Shown piece by piece: positions 10,131 to 26,753 of a DNA stretch of 32,964 bases. The stretch lies in the NCBI RefSeq assembly GCF_003569765.1, contig NZ_QXMG01000063.1, positions 1 to 32,964 on the forward strand, written 5' to 3'. The DNA comes from Caldimonas tepidiphila. Lineage in GTDB: Bacteria > Pseudomonadota > Gammaproteobacteria > Burkholderiales > Burkholderiaceae_C. The position numbers and the translations under genes were made by a program. Position 1 is the stretch's first letter, and every line of letters begins with the position of its first letter. The notes beneath the pieces were generated by a model. It saw nothing but the letters and a program-made list of their open reading frames with translations, did no database searches and was not told where the DNA came from.

Positions 10131-10145
10131 GCAATCGATGTGCCA
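10131..10145 (-). promoter_or_regulatory. Sigma54-type -24/-12 promoter before fhcB
   Basis: On the minus strand the sequence is TGGCACATCGATTGC: GG and GC elements exactly 10 nt apart, matching TGGCAC-N5-TTGC in full. The predicted RNA start is near 10119. The only oddity is that this leaves almost no leader before the fhcB ATG at 10116. Confidence 0.65.
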
Positions 10146-10200
10146 TGCCGCCCCGCCGGTGGGATGCGTGCCGCGCGCAGGGGCGGCGTGCCGCCGCGGC

Positions 10201-10254
10201 CACAGTCTGTGCGGGGCGGGGCGGCCACACTGCACCGCCGCTGCAACACTGTGT
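10201..10254. promoter_or_regulatory. Candidate activator-binding palindromes upstream of fhcB
   Basis: CACAGTCTGTG (perfect 5-1-5 palindrome, 10201-10211) and ACACTGTGT (10246-10254) lie about 57-110 bp upstream of the -24 element. That is where sigma54 activators usually bind. The same ACACnGTGT core recurs at 26631-26639 between two other sigma54-type promoters. Confidence 0.45.
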
Positions 10255-10383
10255 GACGCGCGCCGGCGGCACGCGCTGCGCCGTCCCGGCGCCGCCCGCG
10301 CGGCAGCGATGGCACGGTTCGTGTTTGGCCCGGGGCATGAACCCCCGAGCACCGACGATCCGGACCGCGCGACCGCCGCGGCT

Positions 10384-11082
10384 TCAGCCCGCGCGCGGCA
10401 GCCGCAGGTCGTGCAGCGCGCTGGCAACCAGCCAGGCGTCGGCGCCGGCCGCTTGGGCGGCCCGCAAGTCGGCCGCGTCGCGGATGCCGCCCGCGCCGAC
10501 GAGCTCCGCGTGCGGCGCGTGCCGGCGCACCTCGGCGAGCGTGTCCAGGTCCGGCCCGGCGTCGCTGCCGACGCGGTCGAGCGTCATCACGATCAGCCGC
10601 TGCGGCCACAGCCCGGGCCGGGTCCAGCAGCCGCCCGGGTCGAGCGGCCGCTCGTGGCGGCGGTCGAGCGACAGCACGCCCGCGGCGGGCGGCGCCATGC
10701 AGCGCGCGAGCGCCTCGGGCGAGGCGAGCGACTCGCTGCCGAACACCGGCACGACGCGTTGCGCCTCGGGGCCGAGCGCGGCGAGCAGGGACTGCGCCGC
10801 GTCGCGGTCGGCGAAGCCGGCGTCGATCCAGAACTCCACGCCGGGCAGCTGCCGCAGCAGGCGCGCGAGCAGCGCGGCCTGCGGCGCGCCGCCGAGCAGC
10901 CCGTCGAGGTCGGCGACGTACAGTCGGCGCGCGGCGCAATGGGCCAGCAGCGTCGCGGCCACCTGCCGCGGCTCGCTGCTGCCGCACAGCGGCGACTCGA
11001 TGGGGCGGTAGGTGGAACGTTCGCCCTTGAGCGCGCGCACCACCTGGCCGGCGAGCAGGTCGATGACGGGAATGATTTGCAT
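10384..11082 (-). CDS. HisA-like TIM-barrel protein of the C1 cluster
   Basis: A 232-residue protein that resembles HisA/HisF (phosphoribosylformimino-AICAR-P isomerase). The N-terminus IIPVIDLLAGQVVRALKGER matches the HisA phosphate-barrel start, with Asp at the usual acidic position. The C-terminus LVGAGGIRDAADLRAAQAAG-ADAWLVASALHD matches the second phosphate-binding half. It is shorter and divergent from true HisA and lies far from any histidine gene. HisA-like genes accompany H4MPT genes in bacteria and archaea, which suggests a role in making or handling a ribosylated or phosphorylated cofactor intermediate; the reaction is not known to me. Its start is only 18 bp from the divergent mfnD start. 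Confidence 0.82.
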   Translation of the reverse strand: MQIIPVIDLLAGQVVRALKGERSTYRPIESPLCGSSEPRQVAATLLAHCAARRLYVADLDGLLGGAPQAALLARLLRQLPGVEFWIDAGFADRDAAQSLLAALGPEAQRVVPVFGSESLASPEALARCMAPPAAGVLSLDRRHERPLDPGGCWTRPGLWPQRLIVMTLDRVGSDAGPDLDTLAEVRRHAPHAELVGAGGIRDAADLRAAQAAGADAWLVASALHDLRLPRAG

Positions 11083-11100
11083 GGGGCGACGGGCAGGGCG

Positions 11101-12051
11101 ATGAAACGGACGATCCTGGTCTACGAACACCTGAGCGCCGGCGGCGACGGGGCCGATCCGCAGCTGCGGGACGAGGGCGCGGCGATGCGCGACGCGATTG
11201 TGGCGGGTCTCGCCGCCTGCCCGGACGTGCTCGTGTGCCTGGCGGAGCCCGCCACGGCCGGGGCGCCGGTCGCGGGCACCGCGGCCCCGCGCGCCGGCGA
11301 GTCGATGCCCGACTTCGTCGGGCGCGAGGCGCGGCGGTACGACCGGGTCTGGGTGGTGGCGCCGGAGACGGACGGGCTGCTCGCCGAGTTCTGCCTGCGC
11401 GTCGATCCGGCGCGCTGGATCGGCTGCGACGCGGCCGCGGTGCAGCTCGCGACGAGCAAGCGCGCGACGCTCGCGCACCTTGCGCGCCACGGCCTGAACA
11501 CGCCGCTGGACTTCGAGCGCGCCGCCGACGTGACGCGCTGGGTGGTGAAGCCCGACGACGGCGCCGGCGCGGTGGACACCCGCGTGCATGCGAGCTTCGA
11601 CGCGGCGCTGGCCGCGGCCTCGCAGCGCCGCGACGCCGGGCGGCCGGTCTCGCTCGAGCCCTGGGTGCCGGGCGAGGCGCTGAGCCTGTCGCTGCTGTGC
11701 GGGGGCGGCCGCCCGGTCGAGCTGCTGAGCGTCAACCGGCAGCGCATCGTCGTGGACCCCTGGGGCTCGGTGTCGCTGGTCGGGCTGGACCTCGACGCGA
11801 TCGCACCGGCCTCGCCCCGCGGCCGCGAGCTCGGCCGGGTCGCGGCGCAGGTGGCGCGGGCGATGCCCGGGCTGCGCGGCTTCGTCGGCATCGACCTGGT
11901 CTGGCACGCGCGGCGCGGCCCGGTGGTGATCGAGGTGAACCCGCGTGTCACGAGCGCCTTCGTCGGGCTGTCGCAGCAGCTCGGGCGGCCGCTCGCGGCC
12001 GAGATCCTCGCGCGCTGCTGTCCCGGGGAGGCGAGCGATGCCGCGGCCTGA
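11101..12051 (+). CDS. mfnD: ATP-grasp ligase, MfnD-like (methylofuran glutamate ligase)
   Basis: A 316-residue ATP-grasp protein. It opens MKRTILVYEHLSAGG, as do MfnD-type tyramine/tyrosine-glutamate ligases. ATP-binding residues are visible in RWVVKPDDGAGAVDT and SLEPWVPGEALSLSLLC, and the metal-binding end is GPVVIEVNPRVTSAFVG. It would attach glutamate to the amine part of methylofuran. It is first of three overlapping genes: mfnF starts 14 nt before its stop, and mfnE overlaps mfnF by one base. The divergent hisA-like gene begins 18 bp away, so the promoter for this operon must lie inside that gene. Confidence 0.88.
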   Translation: MKRTILVYEHLSAGGDGADPQLRDEGAAMRDAIVAGLAACPDVLVCLAEPATAGAPVAGTAAPRAGESMPDFVGREARRYDRVWVVAPETDGLLAEFCLRVDPARWIGCDAAAVQLATSKRATLAHLARHGLNTPLDFERAADVTRWVVKPDDGAGAVDTRVHASFDAALAAASQRRDAGRPVSLEPWVPGEALSLSLLCGGGRPVELLSVNRQRIVVDPWGSVSLVGLDLDAIAPASPRGRELGRVAAQVARAMPGLRGFVGIDLVWHARRGPVVIEVNPRVTSAFVGLSQQLGRPLAAEILARCCPGEASDAAA

Positions 12052-13123
12052 GCTCTCCGTCGCCGCGGACGCGCCGGCGGTGCTCGGCTGGGACGTCGGC
12101 GGCGCCCACGTGAAGGCCTGCCTGCTGCAGGGCGGCCGGGTGCGCGACGTCGTGCAGTGGTCCTGCCCGCTGTGGCAGGGCCTGGAGCAGCTCGACCGGG
12201 TGCTGGCGCAGGCCGCCGCGCGCTGGCCGGGGCTGGACCATGCGGCGCATGCGGTCACGATGACCGGCGAGATGGCCGACCTGTTCGAGCATCGCGAGGC
12301 GGGCGTGACGCGGATCGCGCAGCGCATGACGACGCTGCCCGGTGCCGGCTGGCACTTCCACGCCGGGGACGCCGGCTGGTGCGGGCCGGATCGGGTGGGG
12401 GCGAGCTGGGAGGCGATTGCCTCGGCCAACTGGCGCGCCACGGCGCGGCTTGCGGCGCGCGCCGTCGGCGACGGCGTGCTGGTCGACATCGGCAGCACCA
12501 CCTGCGACCTGATCCCGCTGCGCGGAGGCCACGATGCGGCGCAGGGCGCCACCGACGCGGCGCGGCTCGCCAGCGGCGAGCTGGTCTACCACGGCGTGGT
12601 GCGCACGCCGCTGTGCGCGCTCGCGCGCCGGATCCCCTTCGGCGGCCTGCGCCGCAACGTGATGAACGAGTTCTTCGCCACCACCGCGGACGTCTACCGC
12701 CTCACCGGCGAGCTCGACCCCGCGCACGACCTCTACCCGCCGGCCGACGGCGGTGCGAAGGACGCCGCGGCAACGCGCCGGCGGCTCGCGCGCATGGTGG
12801 GGCTCGACGCGCGCGACGCCGACGACGCGCAGTGGCTCGCCTTCGCGCAGGCCTGGCGCGAGGAGCAGCTCGCGGTGATCGGCGCCGAGCTCGACCGGGT
12901 GATCGCGGCGGCCGGCGTGCCGGCCGGGGCGCCGCTGGTCGGCGCGGGCTGCGGCGACTTCCTCGCCGTCGAGCTCGCGGCGCGGCGGGGGCGGCCCGTG
13001 CGCCGCTTCGCCGACCAGCTCGCGGGCCTGCATCCGCAGGCCGACCCGGAATCGGGCCGCTGGGCCCAGGTGTGCGCGCCGAGCGTGGCCGTCGCGCTGC
13101 TGTTCCACCAGGAGATGCAGTGA
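12038..13123 (+). CDS. mfnF: MfnF-like methylofuran synthesis protein (hydantoinase/kinase fold)
   Basis: A 361-residue protein of the H4MPT-linked C1 transfer pathway family, with an ASKHA/hydantoinase-like fold. Visible elements are LGWDVGGAHVKACLL (phosphate 1 loop), HAVTMTGEMADLF, VLVDIGSTTCDLIPL (second nucleotide-binding loop) and GAGCGDFLAVELA near residue 305. In methanogens MfnF joins the aminomethylfuran phosphate unit to the tyramine-glutamate part. GGGGAGG just upstream supports the ATG at 12038, inside the end of mfnD. It sits between MfnD and MfnE, matching its predicted step. Confidence 0.9.
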   Translation: MPRPELSVAADAPAVLGWDVGGAHVKACLLQGGRVRDVVQWSCPLWQGLEQLDRVLAQAAARWPGLDHAAHAVTMTGEMADLFEHREAGVTRIAQRMTTLPGAGWHFHAGDAGWCGPDRVGASWEAIASANWRATARLAARAVGDGVLVDIGSTTCDLIPLRGGHDAAQGATDAARLASGELVYHGVVRTPLCALARRIPFGGLRRNVMNEFFATTADVYRLTGELDPAHDLYPPADGGAKDAAATRRRLARMVGLDARDADDAQWLAFAQAWREEQLAVIGAELDRVIAAAGVPAGAPLVGAGCGDFLAVELAARRGRPVRRFADQLAGLHPQADPESGRWAQVCAPSVAVALLFHQEMQ

Positions 13124-13719
13124 TGTGGGTCGTCAAGATCGGTGGCAGCCTGAACCGCGACGCGCTGCTGCCGCAGTGGCTGGAACTGCTCGGCACGCTC
13201 GGGCGCGGGCGCGTGGTGCTGGTGCCGGGGGGCGGCGCCTTCGCGGACGAGGTGCGCGCGGCGCAGCGGCACTGGTCCTTCGACGACGTGGCCGCGCACA
13301 ACATGGCGGTGCTCGGCATGGCGCAGACGGCGATGCTGCTGCGGGGCCTCGCGCCCGCGCTGCAGCCGGTGCTGCGCGAGGCCGACTTCCGCAAAGTGCT
13401 GCGCCAGGGCGGCACCGCGCTGTGGATGCCGCTGCAGCTGCTGCGCGAGCAGGCGGACGAGCTGACGAGCTGGGAGGTCACGTCCGACAGCCTGGCGCTG
13501 TGGCTCGCGCGGCGGCTCAACGCCGAGCGCCTCGTGCTGGTGAAGTCCTGCGAGATGGATGCGGCCGCCTCCTTCGGCGAGCTCGCGCAGGCCGGCGCGC
13601 TCGACGGCCGCTTCGCCGCGCTGGCGGCGGACGCGGCCTTCCCGATCGAGCTGCTGCACCGCGGCGAGCTGGAGCGCATGCGCGCGCTGCTGATCGGCGA
13701 GCACGTCTGCGCGATGTGA
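13123..13719 (+). CDS. mfnE: MfnE-like aminomethylfuran phosphate kinase (amino acid kinase family)
   Basis: A 198-residue amino-acid-kinase-fold protein. It begins MWVVKIGGSL (the K-x-GGS nucleotide/phosphate loop) and continues VVLVPGGGAFADEVR; SDSLALWLARRL and LVLVKSCEMD are further family blocks. In the methanofuran pathway MfnE phosphorylates aminomethylfuranmethyl phosphate to the diphosphate used by MfnF. Start and mfnF stop share one base (TGATG). It is the last gene of the plus-strand operon and converges on mfnB 73 nt away. That gap contains a GCCGGC self-pairing repeat (13730-13750) but no clear terminator. Confidence 0.88.
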   Translation: MWVVKIGGSLNRDALLPQWLELLGTLGRGRVVLVPGGGAFADEVRAAQRHWSFDDVAAHNMAVLGMAQTAMLLRGLAPALQPVLREADFRKVLRQGGTALWMPLQLLREQADELTSWEVTSDSLALWLARRLNAERLVLVKSCEMDAAASFGELAQAGALDGRFAALAADAAFPIELLHRGELERMRALLIGEHVCAM

Positions 13720-13792
13720 GGCGGGCGCGGCCGGCGCGTCGGCGGCCGGCACGGCGAAAGGCGGGTCTGCTGCGGGGCTGCTGCGGCGGGGC

Positions 13793-14482
13793 TCAGCCGG
13801 CCGGCGCACCGCACAGCTGCGCGTGCAGCGCCTGCAGGCGCTGCGCGTCGAGCGCCCCGGTGCGCGCTCCGTCGCAGACCGCGCTGCGAAAGCCCGCAAA
13901 GTCCGGCGCCAGCTCCCGCAGCAGCGGCAGGTGGCCCATGCGCAGCGCGCCCGCCAGCCCGGCGAGCCTGCCCGAGCGCCGGCACCGTTCGACGAAGCCG
14001 TGCAGCGCCTCGCGCTCCAGGCAGTCGAACAGGCTGCCGGCGAGCTTGTCGGCGGTGTCGAGCATCAGCGCGGGGAAGGGGCCGGCGCAGGCCTGCTCGA
14101 TCCGCGCCGCGTCGAGGCCCCGGTCCGCGATGAACACCGGCACCACGCGGCGGCCGCAGGCGGCGAGCGCCGACAGCACCGCCGCCGCGCCGGCCTCCTT
14201 GTCGATGCCGACCTTTACGTAGTCGACGCCGCAGTCCGCCACCGCGTCGACCTGCGCGAGGATCGCGGGCAGCTCGCCCATCGGCCAGTCGCCGATCGTC
14301 GCGCTGATCTCGCGGCGGCTGCCGCGCGCGCGCAGCGCGGAGACGATCTCCCGCACCCGCGCGTGCGGCAGGCCGCCGAGCGCGCCGGCCTGCGGCTCCT
14401 TGAGGTCGATCAGGTCCGCGCCCGCCTCGTCGGCCAGCAGTGCCTCCTCGACCGAGCGCACGCTCACCAGCAGCCGCGTCAT
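13793..14482 (-). CDS. mfnB: (5-formylfuran-3-yl)methyl phosphate synthase
   Basis: A 229-residue DUF556/MfnB-family TIM-barrel enzyme. It condenses two glyceraldehyde-3-phosphate molecules into the furan ring of methanofuran or methylofuran. The Schiff-base region is LIDLKEPQAGALGG (K28), with further conserved lysines at K90 (DYVKVGI) and K146 (LDTADK). The start overlaps the DUF447 stop as ATGA. It is last in the operon afpA-DUF6513-DUF447-mfnB and converges on mfnE, so the two halves of methylofuran synthesis meet tail to tail. mfnA and mfnC homologues are not in the window. Confidence 0.95.
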   Translation of the reverse strand: MTRLLVSVRSVEEALLADEAGADLIDLKEPQAGALGGLPHARVREIVSALRARGSRREISATIGDWPMGELPAILAQVDAVADCGVDYVKVGIDKEAGAAAVLSALAACGRRVVPVFIADRGLDAARIEQACAGPFPALMLDTADKLAGSLFDCLEREALHGFVERCRRSGRLAGLAGALRMGHLPLLRELAPDFAGFRSAVCDGARTGALDAQRLQALHAQLCGAPAG

Positions 14483-15054
14483 GCCGCGACCCGGCGCAGG
14501 CGGTGTGCGGCGATCGCCTCGAGCAGCCAGCTCCAGGCCTCGCGCTCGGCCGGCCCGGCGGTCTTCTCGACCGCGATCTGCAGGTAGTGCATCTCGGTGT
14601 CGATCTTGTGCGCGGGCAGCATGTGCAGCCGGCTGACCAGCACCGCGGCCTCGATCACCGCCGCCTGCGCGCGGTTGAAGCCGGGGAAGCGGCCGTGCTG
14701 GGCCTCGTGCACGCGCTCCATCGTCAGCACCGGGCGCTGCGGGTCCTCGCGGTGCTCGGCGAGGCGCAGCTCGACGTGGCTCAGCGCGCAGGCCAGCCGC
14801 GCGCCGGGCACCTTCTCGGCCGGCAGCACCGGCCAGTCGCGGCGCCCCGTGACGCAGCCGGCGAACACGCGCGTGTCGGTGACCACGTTGAGCACCGCGT
14901 GGCCACCGGCGAGGATGTTGTCGAGCGTCGCCGAGGGCCGGAAGGGCATCAGCACCACCCGCTCGCCGGCGTAGCGCACGCCCATCGGCGCGACATGCGC
15001 GCGGCCCTGCGGCGACTGCGTCGTCACCACCGTCTCGAAGATCACGTCGTTCAT
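14479..15054 (-). CDS. DUF447 family protein
   Basis: A 191-residue protein of the DUF447 family, related to flavin-reductase/FMN-binding split-barrel proteins. Family features: the opening MNDVIFETVVTTQSPQGRAHVAPMGVRY, the block LDNILAGGHAVLNVVTDTRVFAGCV and an acidic helical C-terminal part with AAVIEAAVLVSRLHML. It overlaps its neighbours by ATGA at both ends, so it is tightly coupled with DUF6513 and mfnB. Distribution with H4MPT/methylofuran genes suggests a cofactor-synthesis role, possibly flavin-dependent; the reaction is unknown. Confidence 0.88.
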   Translation of the reverse strand: MNDVIFETVVTTQSPQGRAHVAPMGVRYAGERVVLMPFRPSATLDNILAGGHAVLNVVTDTRVFAGCVTGRRDWPVLPAEKVPGARLACALSHVELRLAEHREDPQRPVLTMERVHEAQHGRFPGFNRAQAAVIEAAVLVSRLHMLPAHKIDTEMHYLQIAVEKTAGPAEREAWSWLLEAIAAHRLRRVAA

Positions 15055-16990: not shown

Positions 16991-17024
16991 GGGCTCGCGG
17001 GCCGTCGCGGGCGTCGCGCTGGCC

Positions 17025-19034
17025 TCAGGCGCGCGGCGTGACGGGGATCTGGAGCTTATGAAGTTTCCGGTAGAGGGTGTTGCGGCTGACATCGAGCGCC
17101 TTCGCGACGTTGCTCACGTTCCAGCGATGCTGCTCGAGCAGGCGCAGCAGCACCTGCCGTTCGTTCGACTGGATCACGTTGAGCCCGCTCGGCGCGGGCT
17201 CGGGGAGGGATTCGGGGATCGACGGCGCGGCCTCGGGCGCGGGCAGCTGCGGCGTCGCGAACGTGCCGGGGGCGGGCTGCGACGGCGCGGCGGCCGGGCT
17301 GCCGCCGGCGAGCGAGGGCAGCTGGGGCAGCCCGATCGGCTCGCCGTCGGACAGCGCGACCGCGGTGCGCAGCACGTGGCGCATCTGGCGCAGGTTGCCG
17401 GGCCAGGGATGCGCCATCAGCAGCGCCTCGGCCTCGGGCGTGAGCCCGGGCGCCTCGCCGCCGGCCTCCTCGCGCAGGATCTTCGCGATCAGCTCGCGGC
17501 GGTCGGCGCGCTCGCGCAGCGGCGGCAGGTGCAGCTCGATGCCGTTGAGCCGGTAGTACAGGTCCTCGCGGAAGCGCCCCTCGGCGACGAGCTCGGCGAG
17601 CTTGCGGTGGCTCGCAGACAGCAGCTGGAAATTCACCGCGTGCGTCTCCTCGGTGCCGAGCGGCGTGACCTGGCGCTCGTCGAGCACGCGCAGCAGCCGC
17701 GCCTGCAGATCGAGCGGCATGTCGCCGATCTCGTCGAGGAAGAGCGTGCCGCCGTCGGCCTGCAGGATCTTGCCGCGCCGCCCGCTGCGCTGCGCGCCGG
17801 TGAAGGCGCCGGCGCGGTAGCCGAACAGCTCGGCCTCGATCAGGCTCTCGGGCAGGCTCGCGCAGTTGACCGCGACGAAGGCGCCGCCGGCGTGGCCGCT
17901 GCGCTCGTGCACCGCGCGGGCGAACACCTCCTTGCCGGCGCCGGTCTCGCCGTGCAGCAGCACCGGCGTGTTGCGCGCGATCACGCGGCGCGCGGTCTCG
18001 AGGTGCGCGGCGAGGATCGGGTCGCCGCTCGTCGGCGCATGGGCCGAAGGCCGCAGCGGACGGGCCGCGGCGAGCCGGCGCGGCAGGGCGGCCGCGGCCC
18101 CGTCGCCCGCGGGCCGGCGCGCCACCGCGAAGAAGCGGTGCGCGCCGTTGACGCGGTAGGTCACCACCGGGTGGAAGGACGCGGCGCTGCTGCGCTCGAC
18201 GATGTCGTCGAGCGTGGTCTCGAAGAAGTCGTCGATGCGGCGCTCGTTCAGCTCGGCGAGCGAGCGCACGCCGAGCTGGAACAGCGCGCTGCGGTTGGCG
18301 GCGAGGATGCGCCCGTCCTGCCCGAGCGCCAGGCGCCCTTCGTGCAGCGTGTAGACGAACTCGGGGCGGGTGTGGAAGTGCACCGGGTGCGCGTGGCGGA
18401 AGCGCCGGTCGAGCAGCCGGTTCTCGATCATGCGCGCGGTCATGTCGAGCAGCACCAGCACGTGCTGCTGCATCAGGTTCGAGCGGCTCGTGACGTCGAG
18501 CACCGCGGCCATGCGGCCCGACGGGTCGATGATCGGCACCGCCGAGCAGGTCAGCGACGTGAAGCGCGTGAAGAAGTGGTCCTCCTGGCGCACCGAGATC
18601 GGCCGCGCCGCGGCGAGGCAGGTGCCCATGCCGTTGGTGCCGGCCTCGGCCTCGCTCCACTTCGCGCCGACGTGAAAGCCCACGGGCTTGAGCTCGTCGG
18701 CGAACTCGGGCGAGGACACCATGTGCAGGATCACGCCGTCGGTGTCGGTGAGCACCACCGCGGACAGCGGGTCGGCGAGCTGCTGGAACAGCGTCGTCAT
18801 CTCGTAGCGCGCGCACTCGATGACGTCGGCCATGCGCTCGCGGCGCTCGTCGAGCTCGTCGACGGGGCAGCTCGGCGGCCGCGGCGCGCGGTCGGGGTGC
18901 AGCCGGTAGTCCTGCAGGCAGCGCATCCAGGAACTGGCGACCACCTCGCTGATCTCGTCTGCGCGCACCCCGCGCTGCACGACGTCGAGGATGCGGTCGG
19001 TGTGCCTCGCGGGCACGGAGAGCGACTGGTTCAT
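17025..19034 (-). CDS. Sigma54-dependent activator, AcoR type (regulator 1)
   Basis: A 669-residue bacterial enhancer-binding protein. Residues about 80-205 form a GAF-type sensor with the AcoR-like signature AGTNGMGTCLA and FTSLTCSAVPIIDP. A PAS-like segment lies at 220-300. The AAA+ domain starts near 335: Walker A GETGAGKE at 362-369, the sigma54-contacting GAFTGA at 409-414, and Walker [11 protein letters not shown] near 429. A Pro/Ala-rich linker leads to a Fis-type helix-turn-helix, NVSNVAKALDVSRNTLYRKL. The start at 19034 has CGGAG about 8 nt upstream. The likely inducer binds the GAF domain. It is divergent from folB and just upstream of afpA, so it plausibly controls the C1 genes. 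Confidence 0.93.
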   Translation of the reverse strand: MNQSLSVPARHTDRILDVVQRGVRADEISEVVASSWMRCLQDYRLHPDRAPRPPSCPVDELDERRERMADVIECARYEMTTLFQQLADPLSAVVLTDTDGVILHMVSSPEFADELKPVGFHVGAKWSEAEAGTNGMGTCLAAARPISVRQEDHFFTRFTSLTCSAVPIIDPSGRMAAVLDVTSRSNLMQQHVLVLLDMTARMIENRLLDRRFRHAHPVHFHTRPEFVYTLHEGRLALGQDGRILAANRSALFQLGVRSLAELNERRIDDFFETTLDDIVERSSAASFHPVVTYRVNGAHRFFAVARRPAGDGAAAALPRRLAAARPLRPSAHAPTSGDPILAAHLETARRVIARNTPVLLHGETGAGKEVFARAVHERSGHAGGAFVAVNCASLPESLIEAELFGYRAGAFTGAQRSGRRGKILQADGGTLFLDEIGDMPLDLQARLLRVLDERQVTPLGTEETHAVNFQLLSASHRKLAELVAEGRFREDLYYRLNGIELHLPPLRERADRRELIAKILREEAGGEAPGLTPEAEALLMAHPWPGNLRQMRHVLRTAVALSDGEPIGLPQLPSLAGGSPAAAPSQPAPGTFATPQLPAPEAAPSIPESLPEPAPSGLNVIQSNERQVLLRLLEQHRWNVSNVAKALDVSRNTLYRKLHKLQIPVTPRA

Positions 19035-19268
19035 GTACTGCTCCGGAGTTCGCGTGCCGATGCTGGGGCACCGGTACGTGGGTCGATTTTCCATGATTGC
19101 CGACCTTTGCTGTACCGGGCATGCCCCCCCTCGGTGCCCGCTTCGGGGAGGGGGTTTTCCATGGCGCCGCGACGCAATTCGTGGTCTGCATCTTGCTCGA
19201 CCTGCCGCTCCGCACGCCCCGAGGCGGCGGCCCGAGGAACCTTCACAGCACACGAGGAGACACGAACG
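19035..19268. promoter_or_regulatory. Divergent region between regulator 1 and folB
   Basis: 234 nt that should hold both promoters. For folB a sigma54-like element is seen (separate entry). For the regulator no sigma54 or clear sigma70 promoter could be assigned. The ACACnGTGT motif found near the fhc and mptG promoters was not seen here. Confidence 0.4.
19182..19197 (+). promoter_or_regulatory. Possible sigma54 promoter before folB
   Basis: TGGTCTGCATCTTGCT has GG and GC exactly 10 nt apart and a full TTGC -12 block, but the -24 block matches only in TGG. The predicted RNA start is near 19208, leaving a leader of about 60 nt. Confidence 0.4.
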
Positions 19269-19766
19269 ATGAACGCCAGCTTCCCCCAGACCCGCTTCGC
19301 CCCCCTCGACGCCAGCGGCGTGGCGCTGCCGATGGACCTCGTCTTCATCGACGGCTTCGTCGGCGAGACGGTGATCGGCATCTTCGAGGACGAGCTGCAC
19401 GACACGCAGCCGGTGCGCATCGACCTGCAGGCGGGCGTGCCGCGCGTGCGGGCCTGCGAGACCGACCGCATCCACGACACGATCGACTACGGCGTGGTGC
19501 GCGAGCGGCTGCTGCGCCTGCTGGCCGGGCACCGCGTGCAGCTGCTCGAGGCGCTGGCGGAGTCGATCGCGGAGATGCTGCTGCGGGAGTTCGGGGCGCA
19601 CTGGGTGCGGGTCGCGGTGGCGAAGCCGCGCAAGTTCAGGGACGTGGAGTCGGTGGGCGTGGTGATCGAGCGGCGCGCCGACGAGCCGCGGGCCGCGCAG
19701 CGCGCCGACCGGGGCGGCGCGGTGCTGTCGCTGATCGGTGCCGGGATGGTGCCCGGGGCCGACTGA
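19269..19766 (+). CDS. folB: Dihydroneopterin aldolase-like protein
   Basis: A 165-residue FolB-family protein. Core: LVFIDGFVGETVIGIFEDE (pterin-binding region with the usual Glu), DTIDYGVVRERLLRLL, and the C-terminal VRVAVAKPRKFRDVESVGVVIE with the catalytic-type lysine. It releases glycolaldehyde from dihydroneopterin to give 6-hydroxymethyl-dihydropterin, the pterin needed for folate and, by family analogy, for H4MPT. A 20-residue N-terminal and a 25-residue C-terminal extension are unusual for FolB. GAGGAG lies about 10 nt upstream. It is the only plus-strand gene between 13.7 and 26.8 kb. Confidence 0.88.
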   Translation: MNASFPQTRFAPLDASGVALPMDLVFIDGFVGETVIGIFEDELHDTQPVRIDLQAGVPRVRACETDRIHDTIDYGVVRERLLRLLAGHRVQLLEALAESIAEMLLREFGAHWVRVAVAKPRKFRDVESVGVVIERRADEPRAAQRADRGGAVLSLIGAGMVPGAD

Positions 19767-19777
19767 GGGAGGAGGGG

Positions 19778-19828
19778 GGCACCGCCCGCCAGGGCACGCG
19801 CCGCGTGAGCGGCAAGTCGGGCGGTGCC
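19778..19828. terminator. 11-bp inverted repeat between folB and fae
   Basis: GGCACCGCCCG (19778-19788) pairs perfectly with CGGGCGGTGCC (19818-19828), with a 29-nt loop. It lies between two convergent stops and could act on both strands. There is no T-tract, so it may be an RNA-stabilising hairpin rather than an intrinsic terminator. Confidence 0.5.
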
Positions 19829-19863
19829 GTTCCGGATCAGTCCTTGAGCGTGGCGCTCCTCCT

Positions 19864-20376: not shown

Positions 20377-20415
20377 GGGTCTGTCTCCGTTGAGGAAAGG
20401 TTGATGGTGGTGCCC

Positions 20416-20443
20416 GAGGAGACTCCTCCCCCCGGCGGGGAGG
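20416..20443 (-). other. GC-rich hairpin in the fae leader
   Basis: CCTCCCC (20425-20431) pairs with GGGGAGG (20437-20443) around a 5-nt loop, and GAGGAG-A-CTCCTC (20416-20428) forms a competing palindrome. Both lie between the citG-like stop and fae, 40-67 nt before the fae ATG. An RNA-processing or stability element is plausible. Confidence 0.4.
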
Positions 20444-20450
20444 GCAGCTA

Positions 20451-21374
20451 TCACGTTCCGTGCCACAGCCAGGCGCGGCTCACGCGGTGATCCCAGCCGG
20501 GCTCGAGCAGCGTGGCCAGCAGCAGCGTCGCCACCGCCAGATCGGCGCTGGTGCCGGGGTTGAGGCCCTGTGCCTTCAGCGATTCGTCCCACACCGCGAA
20601 GCAGGGGTCGGCATCGAGCGCGGCGCCGCGCAGCGCGCGCTGCCGCCAGACCTGTGCCTGCGCCATGACACTGTGTGCCGCCGGCTCGCCGTGCTTTCGC
20701 ACAATGTGTGAATCGGGCCAGCGCGCCGCGAACGCGAGCCACGCGGCCTGCACCGCGGCGGCGACGCCGCGCGGAGCCGCGGCGCGGAAGGCTGCCAGCC
20801 CGGTGTCGAACAGGTCCTCGAAGCCCAGCGCGTACTGGCGCGCGATGCTGTCGCGGTGCGCGGCCAGCGCCATCGCCTCGCGCAGCGCGAGGCTCGGCGC
20901 CTCGGCCACGTCCTGCTCGGCCGCGCGCCCGAGCCCGCCCGGGTTGGCGAGCGCGATCGCGCGGTAGGCGGCGCGCGCGTCGTCCACGTCGAGGCCGTCG
21001 AGCACCTGCTCCACCGCGCGGCGCAGCGCCGCGGCGTCGCCCGGCGCGGGCCGGCGCTCCAGCGCCGCGGCGATCGGCGCGCACAGCAGCACGATGCCGA
21101 GGTTGGTGTTACAGCCGGCCGCCGCGACCGTGGCCCGCATCGCCGACTCGATGCGCTCGCCCACCGGGCGGCCGCGCGCGAACAGCGCCGGCGCGGCGGC
21201 CGCCGCGCTCCTGAGGAACATCGCCGCGTCCATGCGGTGCCCCTCCGAATGGCCGCTGACGTTGCCGGGCTTGCGCACCGCGACGTCGAGCTCGCAGGCG
21301 AGCAGGAAGGCGTCCCGGCCCGGCCCCTGCCAGGCGGCGGTCTCGAGCGGCCCGGGCCGCAGCAGCGCGCTCAT
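20451..21374 (-). CDS. CitG-like (triphosphoribosyl-dephospho-CoA synthase family) protein
   Basis: A 307-residue member of the CitG/MdcB family. The signature [22 protein letters not shown] near residue 35 matches the usual KPGxV-x-H family motif, followed by [16 protein letters not shown]. CitG moves a phosphoribosyl group from ATP onto dephospho-CoA. In methylotrophs a homologue always sits with mch and fae (called orf7 in the older literature, by gene order). A role in adding the ribosyl unit to the H4MPT side chain would fit, but is inference. ATGA overlap with the ATP-grasp gene upstream. Two ACAnTGTG-like palindromes lie inside the gene at 20668-20676 and 20700-20708. Confidence 0.88.
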
Positions 21375-22330
21375 GCGCTGCGCTCCTGCGGGCCGCCCGC
21401 GCGCTGCCGCGCCTCGGCCAGCCGCCGGTCGAGCAGGTCGTCGACGATCGCACGCGCGATGCGCAGCGGCGTGACGCGCTGCAGCCCCTGCCAGGCCGCG
21501 ACGCCGTTGACCTCCAGCACGAGCAGCCCCTGCGGCGCGGCGGCCGACAGCGGCGCGGGGATGAGGTCCACCCCGGCGTAGTCGAGCCCGAGCGCCTGCG
21601 CGGCGGCAACCGCCAGCCGCGCCAGCGCCGGCGTGAGCGCCGCCGCCTCGCAGCGCGCGCCCTGCGCGACGTTGTGCACCCAGTGCTCGCTCACGCGCCG
21701 CATTGCCGCGACCGCGCGCCCGCCGATCACCATCACGCGCCAGTCGTGGCCGGGCGCGCCCATTGGCGGCACGAAGCGCTGCAGGTAGGCGAGCGAGCCG
21801 TAGGCGCCGTCGAGCGGCGGCAGCGGCCGGTGCGCGCCGTCGACGCGGCCGACGAGCTGCAGGCCCTTGCCCTGCGAGCCGAACAGCGGCTTGAGCACCA
21901 GCGCATGGCCCGCCGCGCTCTCGCGCATCACGATGCGCTGCGCCTGCGCCGCCGACTCGGTGGCCCAGGTCGGCGGCGCGGGGATGCCGGCCGCGTGCAG
22001 CAGCAGGCTCGTCATCGACTTGTCGACGCTGCGCTCGATCGCGCGCGCGTCGTTGTAGACCGGCACGCCCAGCTCGCGCAGCGCGTGCAGCACCCCGAGG
22101 CGCTTGGTCACCTGCTCGAAGCTGCCGCCGGCGATGCCGCGCACCAGCACCGCGTCGGGCAGCGCGCGGCCGAAGCCGGGCAGCGCGAGGCCGTGCCAAG
22201 CGGCCGTCGTGTCGACGCGGCAGTCGGCGAGGTCGAGGCAGCGGCCCTCGGCGCCGCGCGCGCGCAGCGCCCGCTGCAGCTCGCGCGTGTGCCAGCCGGT
22301 CTCGTCCGTCATGATCGCCACGCGCGTCAT
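21371..22330 (-). CDS. RimK-type ATP-grasp ligase (MptN-like)
   Basis: A 319-residue ATP-grasp protein of the RimK type. It begins MTRVAIMTDETGWHTRELQRAL. ATP-binding blocks are HALVLKPLFGSQGKGLQLV and LAYLQRFVPPMGAPGHDWRVMVIGG; the metal/phosphate end is LLVLEVNGVAAWQGLQRV. RimK-type enzymes add amino acids, usually glutamate; MptN is the methanogen ligase acting on H4MPT. It lies between mch and the citG-like gene, overlapping both by ATGA, the position of orf5 in methylotroph C1 clusters. Its substrate could be the pterin or the poly-glutamate tail of methylofuran; sequence alone does not decide. Confidence 0.88.
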   Translation of the reverse strand: MTRVAIMTDETGWHTRELQRALRARGAEGRCLDLADCRVDTTAAWHGLALPGFGRALPDAVLVRGIAGGSFEQVTKRLGVLHALRELGVPVYNDARAIERSVDKSMTSLLLHAAGIPAPPTWATESAAQAQRIVMRESAAGHALVLKPLFGSQGKGLQLVGRVDGAHRPLPPLDGAYGSLAYLQRFVPPMGAPGHDWRVMVIGGRAVAAMRRVSEHWVHNVAQGARCEAAALTPALARLAVAAAQALGLDYAGVDLIPAPLSAAAPQGLLVLEVNGVAAWQGLQRVTPLRIARAIVDDLLDRRLAEARQRAGGPQERSA

Positions 22331-23352
22331 TCGTGCGCTCCTTGGCGCCACAATTGCTGCAGCAGCGGCATCTCGAGCCGCCCGCCGTGCCAGGTGTTGC
22401 CGCTGTCGAGGTTGGTGACCCAGGCCTCCGCGGGCGCGAACAGGCTGGGGTCGATCTTGTAGAAGTCGTGGCCGGCGTCCCTGAAGATCTCCGCGAAGGA
22501 GCGGCCGTGGTCGGGCGAGTGGATCGACGGCAGCTGCTGCGCCAGGCGCCGCGCCGCCTCGTCGTCGCCGCGCACGCACAGGTGCACGCGACCGCCGTAG
22601 AGGATCGCGTCGTTGGTGCGGCCCATCGCCTGCAGCCCGTCCGGGCTCGGCGCGGGCAGCGGCGCGCTCGCGTTGCCCTCGACGATGCGCCCGAGCGGGA
22701 AGCCGCTCACGTGCGCCTTGTGCAGCGCCACCTCCAGCACGCGCGCCACCACCTGCGTGGTGCCGGCGAGGCTCGCGGTCGGCGTGACGATCAGCGTCAG
22801 CGCCCCGGGCGGCAGGCCGCAGTCCGCGAGCACCTTGTCGACGATCACCCGCGGCGGCAGCCGGTCGACCTCGAGCACCAGGCAGCCGCTGTCGGCGCGG
22901 TCGCGGTAGCCGAGCTCGGCGAAGAGCTCCTCGCGCGCGGCGAGCGCGCGCGCCGGGCCGGAGCCGAGCGAGAAGAACTTCCTGCCGCCGGTCTGCTCCT
23001 TGGTCGCCGACAGGCTCCAGCCCGCGTACTGGCTGCCGAGGCAGGCGAGCACCGGCTGGGAGCTGCTCACCTCGAGCCAGGTCGGCCAGCCTTCGCGCGG
23101 CGTGGCGGCGAGGTGCACGCGGCCGAGCCCGCCCATGCAGATCTCGGCGATCGCGAGGCCGGCGGCGATGCTGCCCTGCGCCTCGATGCCGGCGTCGACG
23201 ATGCAGGTGCCGCGCTCGTCGCGGTGCAGCGCGAGGCGCAGCTCGTCGGCGCGCGCCAGCAGCTGCGCGACGCGCGCCGCGGCGAGCCGGTTGACGCTGA
23301 GCGCGGGCGGCCGCTCAGCCGGGGAGGAGGGGGCTTGCGCAGCCTCGTTCAT
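22327..23352 (-). CDS. mch: Methenyl-H4MPT cyclohydrolase
   Basis: A 341-residue Mch that hydrolyses methenyl-H4MPT to N5-formyl-H4MPT, the third pathway step. Recognisable blocks: IEAQGSIAAGLAIAEICMGG, SSQPVLACLGSQYAGWSL, KFFSLGSGPARALA, SGCLVLEVDRLPP and GRTNDAILYGGRVHL. The first 20 residues are a non-conserved extension. The ATG at 23352 has GGAG about 8 nt upstream, which supports a 38-nt overlap with the 3' end of the preceding ATP-grasp gene; ATGA overlap with the next gene. It lies between MtdB (previous reaction) and Fae. Confidence 0.97.
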   Translation of the reverse strand: MNEAAQAPSSPAERPPALSVNRLAAARVAQLLARADELRLALHRDERGTCIVDAGIEAQGSIAAGLAIAEICMGGLGRVHLAATPREGWPTWLEVSSSQPVLACLGSQYAGWSLSATKEQTGGRKFFSLGSGPARALAAREELFAELGYRDRADSGCLVLEVDRLPPRVIVDKVLADCGLPPGALTLIVTPTASLAGTTQVVARVLEVALHKAHVSGFPLGRIVEGNASAPLPAPSPDGLQAMGRTNDAILYGGRVHLCVRGDDEAARRLAQQLPSIHSPDHGRSFAEIFRDAGHDFYKIDPSLFAPAEAWVTNLDSGNTWHGGRLEMPLLQQLWRQGAHE

Positions 23353-24496
23353 GGCATGTCTCCAGGAAGTCCAGTACGGAATCACGGCGCTGCACGAGGC
23401 GCGCCCGCACCTCCCCGGCGTCGCGGCCGGCGGCGCTGACGCTGCATACCGGGCTGCCGGGGATGAATCGGCTGCCGGCACGCGGCAGGTCGTGGGTCGA
23501 GGCCTGCCGCGCGAGCGCGCACACGGCCCCGGCGTCGAGCGCGAGCGCCCGGCGGGCATAGACGATCTCGTGGCCCTGCACCGCGGCGGCGGGCGCGGGC
23601 GGCGCGGGCAGCAGGCCTTCGAGGCAGGCGCGCACGTGGGCGCGCATCAGGCCGCCCGGCAGCGCCCGGGCGTGCAGCGCCATGCTCGCCGAGGGGCGCG
23701 GATTGATCTCCAGCACCAGCGCCTCGCCGCCGTCGCCGAGCAGGAAGTCGAGGCTGCCGAGGCCGCGCAGCGCGAAGCGCCGGGCGAGCGCCTGCAGCGC
23801 GGCGTCGAGCCGGGCGGCGACGCCCGGCGCCGGCGGCACCGGCCCGATCGCGCCGCAGTAGACGTGGGGGTGGCGCCGGCCGTCGAGCTCGACCGGGCGC
23901 ACGATCAGCGCGTTGAAGCCGACGATGCGCGCCCGCGCGCCGTCGGCGACGAAGAGCGCCGACATCGGCGCGCCGCCCGCCTCGCGCTGCCAGTAGGCGG
24001 CGGGCCCGGCCGGCTCGGCGGCGGCCTGGGCCGCGGCGGCGATGTGCCAGCCGCCGGCGGCGTCGCCGCGCTTGCGCAGCCAGCCGGCCGGCTGCGCGGG
24101 GGCGTCGAAGCGCACCTCGGGATGCGGGATGCCGAGCGCGTCGAGCGCGGCGAAGAAGCGGCGGGGGTCGCGCACCTCGCGCACCGCGTCGGCGCCCATG
24201 CCGATCAGCGGCAGCACCGCGGCGCCGCGCTCGAGCAGTTCCGGCTGGTCCTCGAAGCCGCTGCCGGCCACCCAGCCGAGCGGGCGGCGGCGCTCGCGCA
24301 GGTCCGCGAGCGCGGCAAGGAAGCGCGCCGCATCGAGCCGCAGCGCGCCGGGCGTGCCGATGTCCTGCCAGTGCGCGGCGACGCGCCGCAGGTCGAGGTC
24401 GCCGAAGGCGTCGAGCGCGAGCGGCGCGTAGCCGTCGCGCGCGGCGGCCTCGGCCGTCATGCGCGCCGACAGCCCCGCGAGCACCAGCGCGTCCAT
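23315..24496 (-). CDS. ATP-grasp protein of the H4MPT cluster
   Basis: A 393-residue ATP-grasp-fold protein, possibly the orf17 type of methylotroph clusters. N-terminal pre-ATP-grasp domain: MDALVLAGLSARMTAEAAARDG. The ATP-grasp region has GWLRKRGDAAGGWHI, PMSALFVADG and the metal-binding block GSLDFLLGDGGEALVLEINPRPSASM. The C-terminal 60 residues end CHERGCASPLLPG. It is more like carboxylase/PylC-type ATP-grasp proteins than RimK. It starts 10 nt after the mtdB stop and overlaps mch by 38 nt. It probably forms an amide or acyl-phosphate bond during cofactor synthesis; substrate unknown. Confidence 0.85.
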   Translation of the reverse strand: MDALVLAGLSARMTAEAAARDGYAPLALDAFGDLDLRRVAAHWQDIGTPGALRLDAARFLAALADLRERRRPLGWVAGSGFEDQPELLERGAAVLPLIGMGADAVREVRDPRRFFAALDALGIPHPEVRFDAPAQPAGWLRKRGDAAGGWHIAAAAQAAAEPAGPAAYWQREAGGAPMSALFVADGARARIVGFNALIVRPVELDGRRHPHVYCGAIGPVPPAPGVAARLDAALQALARRFALRGLGSLDFLLGDGGEALVLEINPRPSASMALHARALPGGLMRAHVRACLEGLLPAPPAPAAAVQGHEIVYARRALALDAGAVCALARQASTHDLPRAGSRFIPGSPVCSVSAAGRDAGEVRARLVQRRDSVLDFLETCHERGCASPLLPG

Positions 24497-24506
24497 GCGG
24501 AGCCCG

Positions 24507-25412
24507 TCAGTCGCCCTCGGCCAGCATCTCGCAGGCGAGCGCGTAGGCCTCGGGAAAGCCCAGCGAGAGCGGCCGGTCGGCGTCGCGCATGCGCGCGAGC
24601 AGCCGGTGCTGCACCTGGTACTTGACGTTGCCGACGGCGAGCGCGCCGATGCCCACCGCCTTCGAGTCCGGCAGCGGCTTGCCCATGTCCATCACGCCGA
24701 CGCCGGCCAGACCCTCGGGCGGCACCGCGTTGACGTCGGCCGCGACGAGCAGGCGCGTCGCGGCGCGGCGCTCGCGCTCGCCGAGCACCTGCACGCCGGC
24801 GGCCGCGGTGCCGAGCACCACGTCGGCCTCGGCCGCGGCCTCGCGCACCTCGTCGGCGCCGCGGCAGGACAGGCCCTCGAGCGTGCAGCCGAAGCGCTCG
24901 CCGGTCTCGCGCGCGGCGCGCTGCGCGGCCTCGAGCCCGGAGTGGCTGCCGAGCCGCACGCTCGCGCCTTCCCGCGCCGCGAGCACGCCGGCGATGCGGC
25001 CGACGGTGCCGGTGCCGCCGAGGATCAGCACGCGCTTGTCCGCGAGCGCGGTGCCGTGCGCCTTGCGCAGCTGCGCCTGCACGCAGGCCACCAGCGCCGC
25101 CGCGGTGGTGTAGGAGCCGCTCGGGTCGGCGAAGACCGGCACGTCGAAGGGCGGCACCATCGCGCGGCGCGCGTCCTCCAGCATGTCGGCGGCGAGCAGC
25201 ACGTCTCGCCCGCCGATGAAGATGCCGGTGCGCGCCACGCCCTTGGGGCCGCGCGAGAAGATCGCGTCCTGCGTCAGCCCGGTGAGGGCCTTGCGGTCGA
25301 CCGAGGCGTAGGGCAGCACGAGCTGCCAGCCGGCGTCGGCGGCCATGTTGCTGTCGAAGGGGCTGATGTGCGGCCCCGGGGTGAACATGTGGAGGATGTA
25401 GGGTCGTTCCAT
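24507..25412 (-). CDS. mtdB: NAD(P)-dependent methylene-H4MPT dehydrogenase
   Basis: A 301-residue MtdB that oxidises methylene-H4MPT to methenyl-H4MPT with NAD(P)+. The N-terminal substrate domain reads ILHMFTPGPHISPFDSNMAADAG, with SVDRKALTGLTQDAIFSRGP and RTGIFIGGRD. The Rossmann loop is ILGGTGTVGRIAGVLAA near residue 130. The C-terminal blocks LLVAADVNAVPPEGLAG and KAVGIGALAVGNVKYQ are diagnostic of MtdB. Start at 25412; the ribosome-binding site is weak. It follows mptG by 39 nt and precedes the ATP-grasp gene by 10 nt. Confidence 0.97.
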   Translation of the reverse strand: MERPYILHMFTPGPHISPFDSNMAADAGWQLVLPYASVDRKALTGLTQDAIFSRGPKGVARTGIFIGGRDVLLAADMLEDARRAMVPPFDVPVFADPSGSYTTAAALVACVQAQLRKAHGTALADKRVLILGGTGTVGRIAGVLAAREGASVRLGSHSGLEAAQRAARETGERFGCTLEGLSCRGADEVREAAAEADVVLGTAAAGVQVLGERERRAATRLLVAADVNAVPPEGLAGVGVMDMGKPLPDSKAVGIGALAVGNVKYQVQHRLLARMRDADRPLSLGFPEAYALACEMLAEGD

Positions 25413-25451
25413 GGAGGCGGGCTCGGGCAGGGTGGGAAAGCGGAAGGGGGC

Positions 25452-26510
25452 TCAGGCGCGGGCGAGCGCGCGCTCGGCCGGCCGCAGCTCGATGTCGGCG
25501 CCGCGGTTGCGGGCGCGCACCACGTGCAGGCGCAGGCCGGGCTCGACCAGGCCGGCCTCGGCCGCCTGCCGCACCAGCGCCTGCGCCTCGGCGGCACCGG
25601 GCAGCACCGCGAAGCCGGTCGGCCCCCAGGAGCTCTGGCCGATCGCGGCGGGCGCGCGCGCGCCGATCCACTCGAGCAGGCGGCCGACGCGCGGGCTGGT
25701 CCAGGCGCTGCCTTGCTGCGCCGGCGCGAAGTGGCCGCCGAGCAGCTGCTGCATGCGCGTGAGGCCCTGCGCGAAGGGCTCGAGCTGGCCGGCGGCGGCG
25801 CCGGGCAGGATCTGCATCAGCGCGCGGTGGCAGATCTCGGCCGCCGCGTCGCGCGGGAAGGGCGGCAGGCTCGCGATCGCGCGCCGCTCCTCCGCGCCCG
25901 ACAGCCCGGCCTGTCCCGGCTCGAGCACCAGCAGCACGCGCCAGGCGTCGGGAAAGTGCAGCCGCGCCAGCAGCGGCGCGACGCTGTCGCCTTCGCCTGG
26001 AGCGCCCGGGCCGCCGTCGAGCAGCAACCCGCCGCGCTCGAAGCCGGCGATGCCGACGCCCGAGCGCAGGCCGCGGCCGAGCCAGTGCGCGAGGCGTTCG
26101 GACGGCAGCGCCAGGGCGTGCAGCGCCGCGAAGGCGCGGCCGACCGCGAGCGCGAGCTGCGTGCCGGAGCCGAAGCCGGCGTGCGGCGGCAGCGAGCGGT
26201 GCAGCCGCAGGCTCAGCGGCTGCGCGAGCCCGGCTTCGCGGCGCAGCGTGCGCAGGTGGTCCGCCGCGCGCTCGAGCTCCGAGGGGTCGCCCTCCGGCCC
26301 GGCTTCCAGCCGGTCGCGGTCCGCGCGAGCGAGCTCGACCACGGTCTCGAACTCGTCGATCACGAGGCCGAGGCTGCCGAAGCGCCGGCCGAGCGAGGCG
26401 CCGGGGTCGAGGAAGCCCAGGTGCAGCCGCGCGGGCGCCCGCACCACCACGGCGTCCGCGGAAACGCGGCGGCGGGGCGGCGACGAAGTGGGGATCGGGG
26501 AAGCTCGCAA
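25452..26510 (-). CDS. mptG: Beta-ribofuranosylaminobenzene 5'-phosphate synthase
   Basis: A 352-residue GHMP-kinase-fold enzyme. It condenses p-aminobenzoate with PRPP, releasing CO2 and PPi, the first committed step of H4MPT synthesis. Motifs are VRAPARLHLGFLD near the N-terminus, SLPPHAGFGSGTQLALAVGRAF (the GHMP glycine-rich loop), GVGIAGFERGGLLLDGG and GQSSWGPTGFAVL. The longest frame starts with TTG at 26510, with AAAGG about 8 nt upstream; the GTG cluster near 26450 would remove 20 non-conserved residues and is a real alternative. A sigma54-like promoter at 26547-26561 would start RNA near 26535, which suits the TTG. First gene of the seven-gene operon ending in fae. Confidence 0.93.
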   Translation of the reverse strand: MRASPIPTSSPPRRRVSADAVVVRAPARLHLGFLDPGASLGRRFGSLGLVIDEFETVVELARADRDRLEAGPEGDPSELERAADHLRTLRREAGLAQPLSLRLHRSLPPHAGFGSGTQLALAVGRAFAALHALALPSERLAHWLGRGLRSGVGIAGFERGGLLLDGGPGAPGEGDSVAPLLARLHFPDAWRVLLVLEPGQAGLSGAEERRAIASLPPFPRDAAAEICHRALMQILPGAAAGQLEPFAQGLTRMQQLLGGHFAPAQQGSAWTSPRVGRLLEWIGARAPAAIGQSSWGPTGFAVLPGAAEAQALVRQAAEAGLVEPGLRLHVVRARNRGADIELRPAERALARA

Positions 26511-26546
26511 GGGGCGGCCTTTCGCGAAGTGATGCGGGGGCCGTTA

Positions 26547-26561
26547 GCAAAGCCCGTTCCG
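26547..26561 (-). promoter_or_regulatory. Sigma54-type promoter before mptG
   Basis: On the minus strand CGGAACGGGCTTTGC: GG and GC 10 nt apart, full TTGC followed by T, and -24 block CGGAACG against TGGCACG (two mismatches). The predicted RNA start is near 26535, 25 nt before the TTG start. Confidence 0.5.
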
Positions 26562-26629
26562 CGAGGCGCGATGCCTGCGGGAGCGCCGGGCCGCCGCGCG
26601 CGGCGCGGGCGGGGCTGTGGCGGATCGGG

Positions 26630-26640
26630 GACACAGTGTC
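26630..26640. promoter_or_regulatory. Palindrome GACACAGTGTC between two sigma54-type promoters
   Basis: A perfect 5-1-5 palindrome. It is about 70-80 bp upstream of the mptG -24 element and about 100-110 bp upstream of the regulator 2 -24 element. It shares the ACACnGTGT core with the site at 10246-10254 upstream of fhcB. Confidence 0.45.
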
Positions 26641-26737
26641 ACCACCGTGCCCGCGGTCCCGCACAGCCTGCTGCGCCGGCGCGCGCGCCGCGCCGCCGCG
26701 CTCCCGGGAGGCGACGCGCGGCGGGGCGTGCCGCGGC

Positions 26738-26753
26738 TTGGCATGTGCCTTGC
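26738..26753 (+). promoter_or_regulatory. Sigma54-type promoter before regulator 2
   Basis: TTGGCATGTGCCTTGC: GG and GC 10 nt apart, TGGCA and TTGC complete. The predicted RNA start is near 26765, giving a leader of about 70 nt. This would make the activator itself sigma54-dependent, hence possibly self-regulated. Confidence 0.55.

Follow-up and report, generated by a model that had tools for sequence, protein, structure and literature searches.

Promoters served by the alternative sigma factor σ54 carry GG at -24 and GC at -12, with 10 nt between them, in the context TGGCAYRN4TTGCW. In methanotrophs, σ54 and the activator MmoR reportedly govern the soluble methane monooxygenase, a step of one-carbon (C1) oxidation. 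The review PMC10992012 names rpoN alongside the mmoR/mmoG reference Stafford 2003. The MmoR/RpoN system differs from the one considered here in that it concerns methane oxidation in methanotrophs and not formaldehyde oxidation linked to tetrahydromethanopterin (H4MPT). Here we describe the H4MPT/methylofuran gene cluster of Caldimonas tepidiphila, located on a 32,964-nucleotide stretch of contig NZ_QXMG01000063.1 (the window). Sequence comparison indicates that the cluster is very probably a σ54 regulon activated by one of its own products, regulator 1, through a short palindromic enhancer. The same kind of switch appears to operate in many bacteria that oxidize formaldehyde with this archaeal-type cofactor.

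Our searches of open-access literature found neither σ54 control nor any other regulator for the H4MPT-linked oxidation of formaldehyde in such bacteria; older gene-island papers fall outside this scope, so priority is uncertain. Excerpts of PMC5023235, PMC13300288, PMC12997753 and PMC6615313, which belong to the same literature, contain no σ54 control of the H4MPT pathway, and none of six C1 terms is present in PMC3162934. For Methylosinus, an excerpt of PMC12403871 describes RpoN sites associated with genes for nitrogen fixation (nif) and nitrate. In PMC5748707, an expression table for Paraburkholderia phymatum includes fhcA- and fhcD-type genes and an rpoN mutant is described, with no link between both noticed in the parts seen.

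Regulator 1 resembles the AcoR/DhaR-type σ54 activators in its order of GAF, AAA+ and Fis-type helix-turn-helix (HTH) domains and in its GAFTGA motif. Its GAF region is related to that of DhaR (PDB: 4lrx, a weak match), but it reaches only 258 bits against the DhaR equivalog model NF008485, whose cut-off is 551. It differs from these activators in lying under the cut-off of every NCBIfam model shown, in sitting in H4MPT clusters and in possessing Cys159. A known enhancer of another activator, NorR, is a short inverted repeat with a 3-nt centre, GTCA-N3-TGAC, that is read by a Fis-type HTH. The sites described below share the 3-nt-centred inverted repeat with NorR sites and differ in the half-site, being of the form GACA-N3-TGTC. 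The genes and candidate promoters at issue are the following.

8836..10116, minus strand: fhcB, an open reading frame that matches NCBIfam TIGR03129 under the cut-off and leads fhcB-A-D-C-fae2
17025..19094, minus strand: regulator 1, with GAF, AAA+ with GAFTGA and Fis-type HTH; the proposed activator
19269..19766, plus strand: folB, a FolB-domain protein above the cut-off of TIGR00526 and under that of the folB equivalog TIGR00525
19864..20376, minus strand: fae, formaldehyde-activating enzyme, above the cut-off of TIGR03126
25452..26510, minus strand: mptG, beta-ribofuranosylaminobenzene 5'-phosphate (beta-RFAP) synthase, above the cut-off of TIGR00144, leading mptG-mtdB-atpg2-mch-mptN-citG-fae
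26836..28995, plus strand: regulator 2, an AcoR-type activator and apparently a lineage-specific neighbour
10131..10145, minus strand: fhcB -24/-12 element TGGCACATCGATTGC, without mismatch to TGGCACN5TTGC; the ATG is at 10116, 14 nt beyond
26547..26561, minus strand: mptG -24/-12 element CGGAACGGGCTTTGC
19182..19196, plus strand: folB -24/-12 element TGGTCTGCATCTTGC, without an ACA-N3-TGT site
26739..26753, plus strand: -24/-12-like element 5' of regulator 2 TGGCATGTGCCTTGC, a sequence match in the window
20451..20465, minus strand: -24/-12-like element of fae TGGCACGGAACGTGA, with A replacing C at -12 and overlapping the citG stop codon in the window

A sequence-only reading of the window had placed σ54 elements 5' of fhcB, mptG, folB and regulator 2. 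All four were recovered at the claimed positions with a GG-to-GC gap of 10 nt, and they fit the σ54 consensus with single-position departures in some. Both regulators bear a GAF domain, a Sigma54_activat domain and a Fis-type HTH, the makeup of bacterial enhancer-binding proteins. The GAFTGA motif is intact in both, as claimed, and in 18/18 aligned regulator-1 rows. The same reading had overlooked the fae element, the palindromic enhancer and the near-leaderless start of fhcB. The sequence analysis shows directly where the elements lie, how far they are conserved, what the enhancer motif is and that regulator 1 co-occurs with the promoters.

Spacing alone is uninformative, since GG-N10-GC occurs at chance frequency in the window (1067 against 1040 expected from shuffles). 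TGGCACN5TTGC with at most three mismatches is likewise not enriched there (258 against 313 expected). The 5.47-Mb genome contains 27 copies of the strict element TGGCAYN5TTGC (reversed control 7), two of which are on this 33-kb contig (binomial p 0.012). Judged by their first residues, some genes behind the other strict sites resemble usual σ54 targets, among them nifH and ABC transporters. The genome encodes two copies of rpoN (G000 C48:12140 and C10:26857), one of which might serve particular regulons.

Comparison across relatives is what identifies the elements as real. Regulator 1 as a query retrieved 80 loci, about 15 of them with whole or partial H4MPT clusters and a regulator identity of 60-69%. 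These cluster-bearing relatives include Rubrivivax, Rhizobacter, Azohydromonas, Variovorax, Methylibium, Ramlibacter and others. Up to 19 loci, including the window, were scored from -130 to +30 of each gene, using a threshold of 10 bits that was set after the first 20 genomes of the order sample described below. A site of at least 10 bits precedes fhcB in 14/14 loci (shuffles: mean 0.61, maximum 3), folB in 15/17 (mean 0.45, maximum 3) and mptG in 10/14 (mean 0.18, maximum 3). The 15 control genes have such a site in 0-3 loci each, of 13-18: regulator 1 1/18, hisA 1/13, atpg1 0/13, mfnF 2/13, mfnE 0/13, mfnB 0/14, duf447 1/15, dhps 0/16, flavo 0/17, citG 0/18, mptN 1/17, mch 0/16, atpg2 3/15, mtdB 1/14 and fhcA 2/13. 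The folB element, considered the weakest by the sequence-only reading, thus ranks among the best conserved. Lack of conservation in close relatives had been named beforehand as the outcome that would refute the elements; three of the four, those of fhcB, folB and mptG, proved to be conserved. A σ54 site for regulator 1 itself was rejected on its single locus of 18.

The elements co-occur with regulator 1. In its own order, 37 of 399 genomes carry fhcA, this genome included, and the 36 others were scored for regulator 1. A genome was called positive when its match, whole or split in two, covered most of the protein at 47% identity or more. Thirteen genomes qualified, 12 by matches of 47-71% and G108 via its congener G061; G205 was counted positive over residues 19-454. 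Negatives had at most 44% over most of the length or matched in the AAA+ part only, and AAA+-only matches, some of 51%, were not counted. An fhcB site is present in 11/13 genomes with regulator 1 and in 0/22 without it (G188, whose contig ends before fhcB, is excluded). At mptG, tested in this set after fhcB, sites are present in 10/10 scorable genomes with regulator 1, at 15.4-18.5 bits, and in 2/17 without it, at 12.0-12.2 bits near -150.

Two predictions were written beforehand. In 16 held-out genomes, the fhcB site was found in 3/5 positives and 0/10 negatives (Fisher 0.02). In other orders of the class, 9/11 genomes with regulator 1 and fhcA have an fhcB or mptG site. Among 368 other genomes of the class sample, fhcA is present in 11/13 genomes with regulator 1 (1.6 expected) and in 46/368 overall. 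When fhc-bearing genomes are pooled, an fhcB or mptG site occurs in 22/24 with regulator 1, counting G640 as a miss, and in 8/56 called without it (Fisher 4e-11, kinship uncorrected). The promoters are thus largely present with regulator 1 and absent without it, as expected of a regulon. The conservation, the shared enhancer and the two predictions together lend good support to the earlier proposal that σ54 controls catalysis (fhc and, behind mptG, also mtdB, mch and fae) as well as cofactor synthesis (mptG and folB).

The shared enhancer is a palindrome, SACA-N3-TGTS, that lies 5' of fhcB, fae and mptG and not of folB. Its sites in the window, for which no strand is assigned, are the following.

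10201..10211: fhcB enhancer palindrome CACAGACTGTG (minus-strand letters), of ACA-N3-TGT form
10245..10255: fhcB enhancer palindrome CACACAGTGTT (minus-strand letters), of ACA-N3-TGT form
20667..20677: fae enhancer palindrome, within citG
20700..20710: second fae enhancer palindrome, within citG, 33 bp from the first
26630..26640: enhancer palindrome GACACAGTGTC, in the gap that separates mptG from regulator 2

The core ACA-N3-TGT occurs nine times in the window against 1.4 expected, and five of these are at fhcB, fae and the mptG-regulator 2 gap. The strict form SACASWSTGTS is found at six places in the genome (reversed control four), three of them in this contig (binomial p 4e-6). Across relatives, a core lies within 200 bp of fhcB in 12/13 regions (shuffle mean 0.27), within 200 bp of mptG in 10/14 (0.29) and within 400 bp of fae in 15/17 (0.80). 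It is found at folB in 1/17 regions and at each other gene in 0-1. The palindrome centre is mostly 52-107 bp upstream of -24 at fhcB and mptG (29 bp at mptG in L035) and 166-294 bp upstream at fae, and a candidate upstream activator site is present at these three genes. In genome G298, two of eight SACASWSTGTS places fall in the fetched cluster. Where fhcB and mptG are divergent, GTGACA-N3-TG(T/C) lies between both elements in 9/10 genomes of the order with both scored, and a single enhancer could serve both genes. TGTC-N6-GACA was tried and rejected (10 against 7.1 expected), and a search for inverted repeats found none at folB or regulator 1 and GC-rich repeats elsewhere.

The paired fae palindromes are always 33 bp apart and inside the citG frame, except in L048, where the frame breaks earlier. 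The first includes the codons TCA in 13/14 loci (0.6-3.9% of Ser codons) and ATT in 13/14 loci (1.6-18% of Ile codons), counts that arise partly by construction because the search required the codon shapes. The second is kept while the encoded residues vary between His-Ser-Val, Gln-Thr-Val and Gln-Ile-Val. Coding constraint on citG was thus rejected as the cause of conservation, and we read the rare codons and changing residues under kept palindromes as selection on the DNA.

The fae element itself is a 16-bp block, TGGCAcGGAwCgTGAt, present 5' of fae in 17/17 loci between unconserved flanks. It is no coding relic, since many relatives have it beyond citG or in a different frame. The best reading of the block is a σ54 element whose -12 is unusual; of the promoters it is the least certain. 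A window site at 10310-10324 on the plus strand, TGGCACGGTTCGTGT, has one mismatch to the conserved fae element; it lies in the fhcB-hisA gap and is directed at the hisA 3' end.

The fhcB gene starts close to its element. The ATG is 13-16 nt past the -12 C in 12/14 loci, with no Shine-Dalgarno-like sequence visible by eye; it is 12 nt past the element in L128, and L034 differs. A σ54 transcript begins about 12 nt after the -12 C, so the leader would be 2-5 nt and the fhcB σ54 mRNA should be nearly leaderless, a prediction from position only. Two Variovorax loci have an in-frame stop between element and ATG, so no upstream fhcB start is possible there. In the window, the stretch from the element to the conserved WTCPFC contains no alternative start codon, though one ATG in frame coincides in part with the -24 region. 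An additional in-frame ATG, GTG or TTG occurs 25-44 nt past the element in five loci. In distant regulator-1 genomes the ATG is further off, for example 35-68 nt in L131, L147, L150 and L151. A class of leaderless mRNA exists in bacteria, with no tie to σ54 made in the part of PMC3616915 that describes it.

In the model we favor, regulator 1, an AcoR/DhaR-like protein encoded in the cluster, would bind (GT)GACA-N3-TGTC(AC) 5' of fhcB, mptG and fae and drive σ54 polymerase at their -24/-12 elements. Formaldehyde oxidation and the synthesis of its cofactors would consequently rise together. Transcription of fhcB would start 2-5 nt ahead of the AUG, and folB, which also has a σ54 element, would be reached from some other site. 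The sequence-only reading had suggested one common signal for the whole gene set. This is possible; the folB promoter is without the shared enhancer motif. The regulator-1 GAF domain has Cys159 in 18/18 rows, against Ala or Thr in 31/32 other rows (the exception is L042), and our guess is that it provides a formaldehyde-reactive thiol. In an extended model, regulator 1 would sense formaldehyde or a C1 adduct via Cys159 and, through σ54, throttle this archaeal-type C1 pathway in Burkholderiales as well as in several further orders of Gammaproteobacteria; the fhcB message would be leaderless, and the missing -12 C would keep the fae promoter deliberately leaky. We regard this full version as unlikely. 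The question of the missing regulator becomes testable with a conserved cluster activator, an enhancer of defined sequence and candidate promoters of known position. Together these predict which species use this control and offer a candidate C1-responsive σ54 expression part.

Several observations weigh against the regulon. We infer σ54 dependence, binding by regulator 1 and the nature of the signal (some C1 compound, perhaps formaldehyde sensed by Cys159) from sequence, and the score matrix was entered by hand. Two held-out positives missed the fhcB site (G116 at 6.6 bits and G065 at 3.7), with mptG sites of 18.2 bits seen afterwards. The two misses in the class are G762 (fhcB 8.8 bits, on a piece without mptG) and G640 (main copy past the contig end, second copy 3.9 bits). 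Conversely, 6/34 fhcA genomes of the class called without regulator 1 reach 10 bits (G714 had neither gene). Four of these score 10.1-10.3 bits, G639 is a congener of a positive with an identical element, and G562 (L224) has an unexplained fhcB element of 14.8 bits, with no regulator 1 reported by the class search; this search scored three candidates per genome only, so absence of regulator 1 is not firm. Class genomes with both genes have the palindrome in only 2/7, and folB is without it. SACASWSTGTS occurs 8, 4 and 0 times in three other regulator-1 genomes against 5, 11 and 3 for reversed controls, so it is not a rare word everywhere; in two of the three the strict palindrome is no rarer than its control. 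The tree gathers 16/18 regulator-1 rows into a single clade with full support, separate from the group of regulator 2, but places L163 and L164 with L042, a protein from Solimonas; L036, from Noviherbaspirillum, is close by. No H4MPT genes were seen in the loci fetched for L042 and L036, so proteins related to regulator 1 can serve other functions. The chance frequency of GG-N10-GC and the 27 strict elements across the genome would fit chance matches in GC-rich DNA and a σ70-controlled pathway. We consider this extremely unlikely given the position-specific conservation relative to control genes and shuffles and the association of the elements with regulator 1. The fae element raises a narrower doubt, as it has TGA or TGT in place of GC at -13/-12, reaches 10 bits by canonical scoring in only 2/17 loci and was not found at L163 or L166, both of them more distant loci. 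The A or T at -12 was required by the fae search expression, and those counts are partly by construction. Since fae closes the mptG operon in the window, the block could be the site of another factor or an extended -10, with fae driven by another promoter or by mptG read-through. We find this somewhat unlikely, as the block is exactly TGGCA...TG at σ54 spacing within unconserved flanks and palindromes lie 5' of fae in 15/17 loci.

Regulator 2 could instead be the main activator of these promoters, leaving only folB to regulator 1. It is divergent from mptG in the window and in L027 with a palindrome between them, and folB adjoins regulator 1 yet has no palindrome. However, palindromes and promoters are conserved in regulator-1 clusters without an adjacent regulator 2 (a search elsewhere in those genomes was mostly not made), ACA-N3-TGT lies upstream in only 5/75 other activator loci, and the closest relatives of regulator 2, which come from three genomes within the genus, are beside genes that we take to encode an aldehyde dehydrogenase. 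We consider this alternative very unlikely, and these 5/75 loci and the tree placement led us to reject, as the main reading, a role of regulator 2 as general activator. Among the fetched loci, regulator 2 adjoins mptG only in the window and in L027. Its element is strong in the window yet unconfirmed, since the σ54 candidate of L027 is on the far side of its palindrome. We take regulator 2 to be a local, lineage-specific addition, judging by its gene neighborhoods. The claim of two resident activators therefore stands for regulator 1, which co-occurs with the promoters, and falters for regulator 2. As a whole, the σ54 part of the earlier interpretation emerged stronger than it was put and the part given to regulator 2 unproven.

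Other observations concern single loci. In Azohydromonas australica (L024, 10001-13582), regulator 1 (69%) and fae2 occur together, with other H4MPT genes not found in the fetched 22 kb and no σ54 element found near this orphan regulator. Many cluster genes of Piscinibacter aquaticus (L048) are fragmented across different frames, apparently by sequencing error. Elsewhere in the C. tepidiphila genome, a perfect GACACAGTGTC (L124 6388; G000 C59:18387) lies 5' of a gene that seems to encode a GGDEF protein; it may mark an additional member of the regulon or be a chance match.

The same genome encodes a regulator-2 paralogue (67% identical; G000 C5:60678-63014, L104) beside a cytochrome gene of the pyrroloquinoline quinone (PQQ) type, with its own strict σ54 element. 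A PQQ methanol/ethanol-family dehydrogenase with a strict σ54 element follows 15 kb on (G000 C5:78019, L121). These PQQ alcohol dehydrogenase genes near AcoR-type activators resemble the present cluster in having an activator divergent from a strict σ54 element. L104 differs in its inverted repeat, CCAATGT...ACATTGG, and has no ACA-N3-TGT near the activator. Alcohol oxidation may thus also be σ54-controlled in the same cell.

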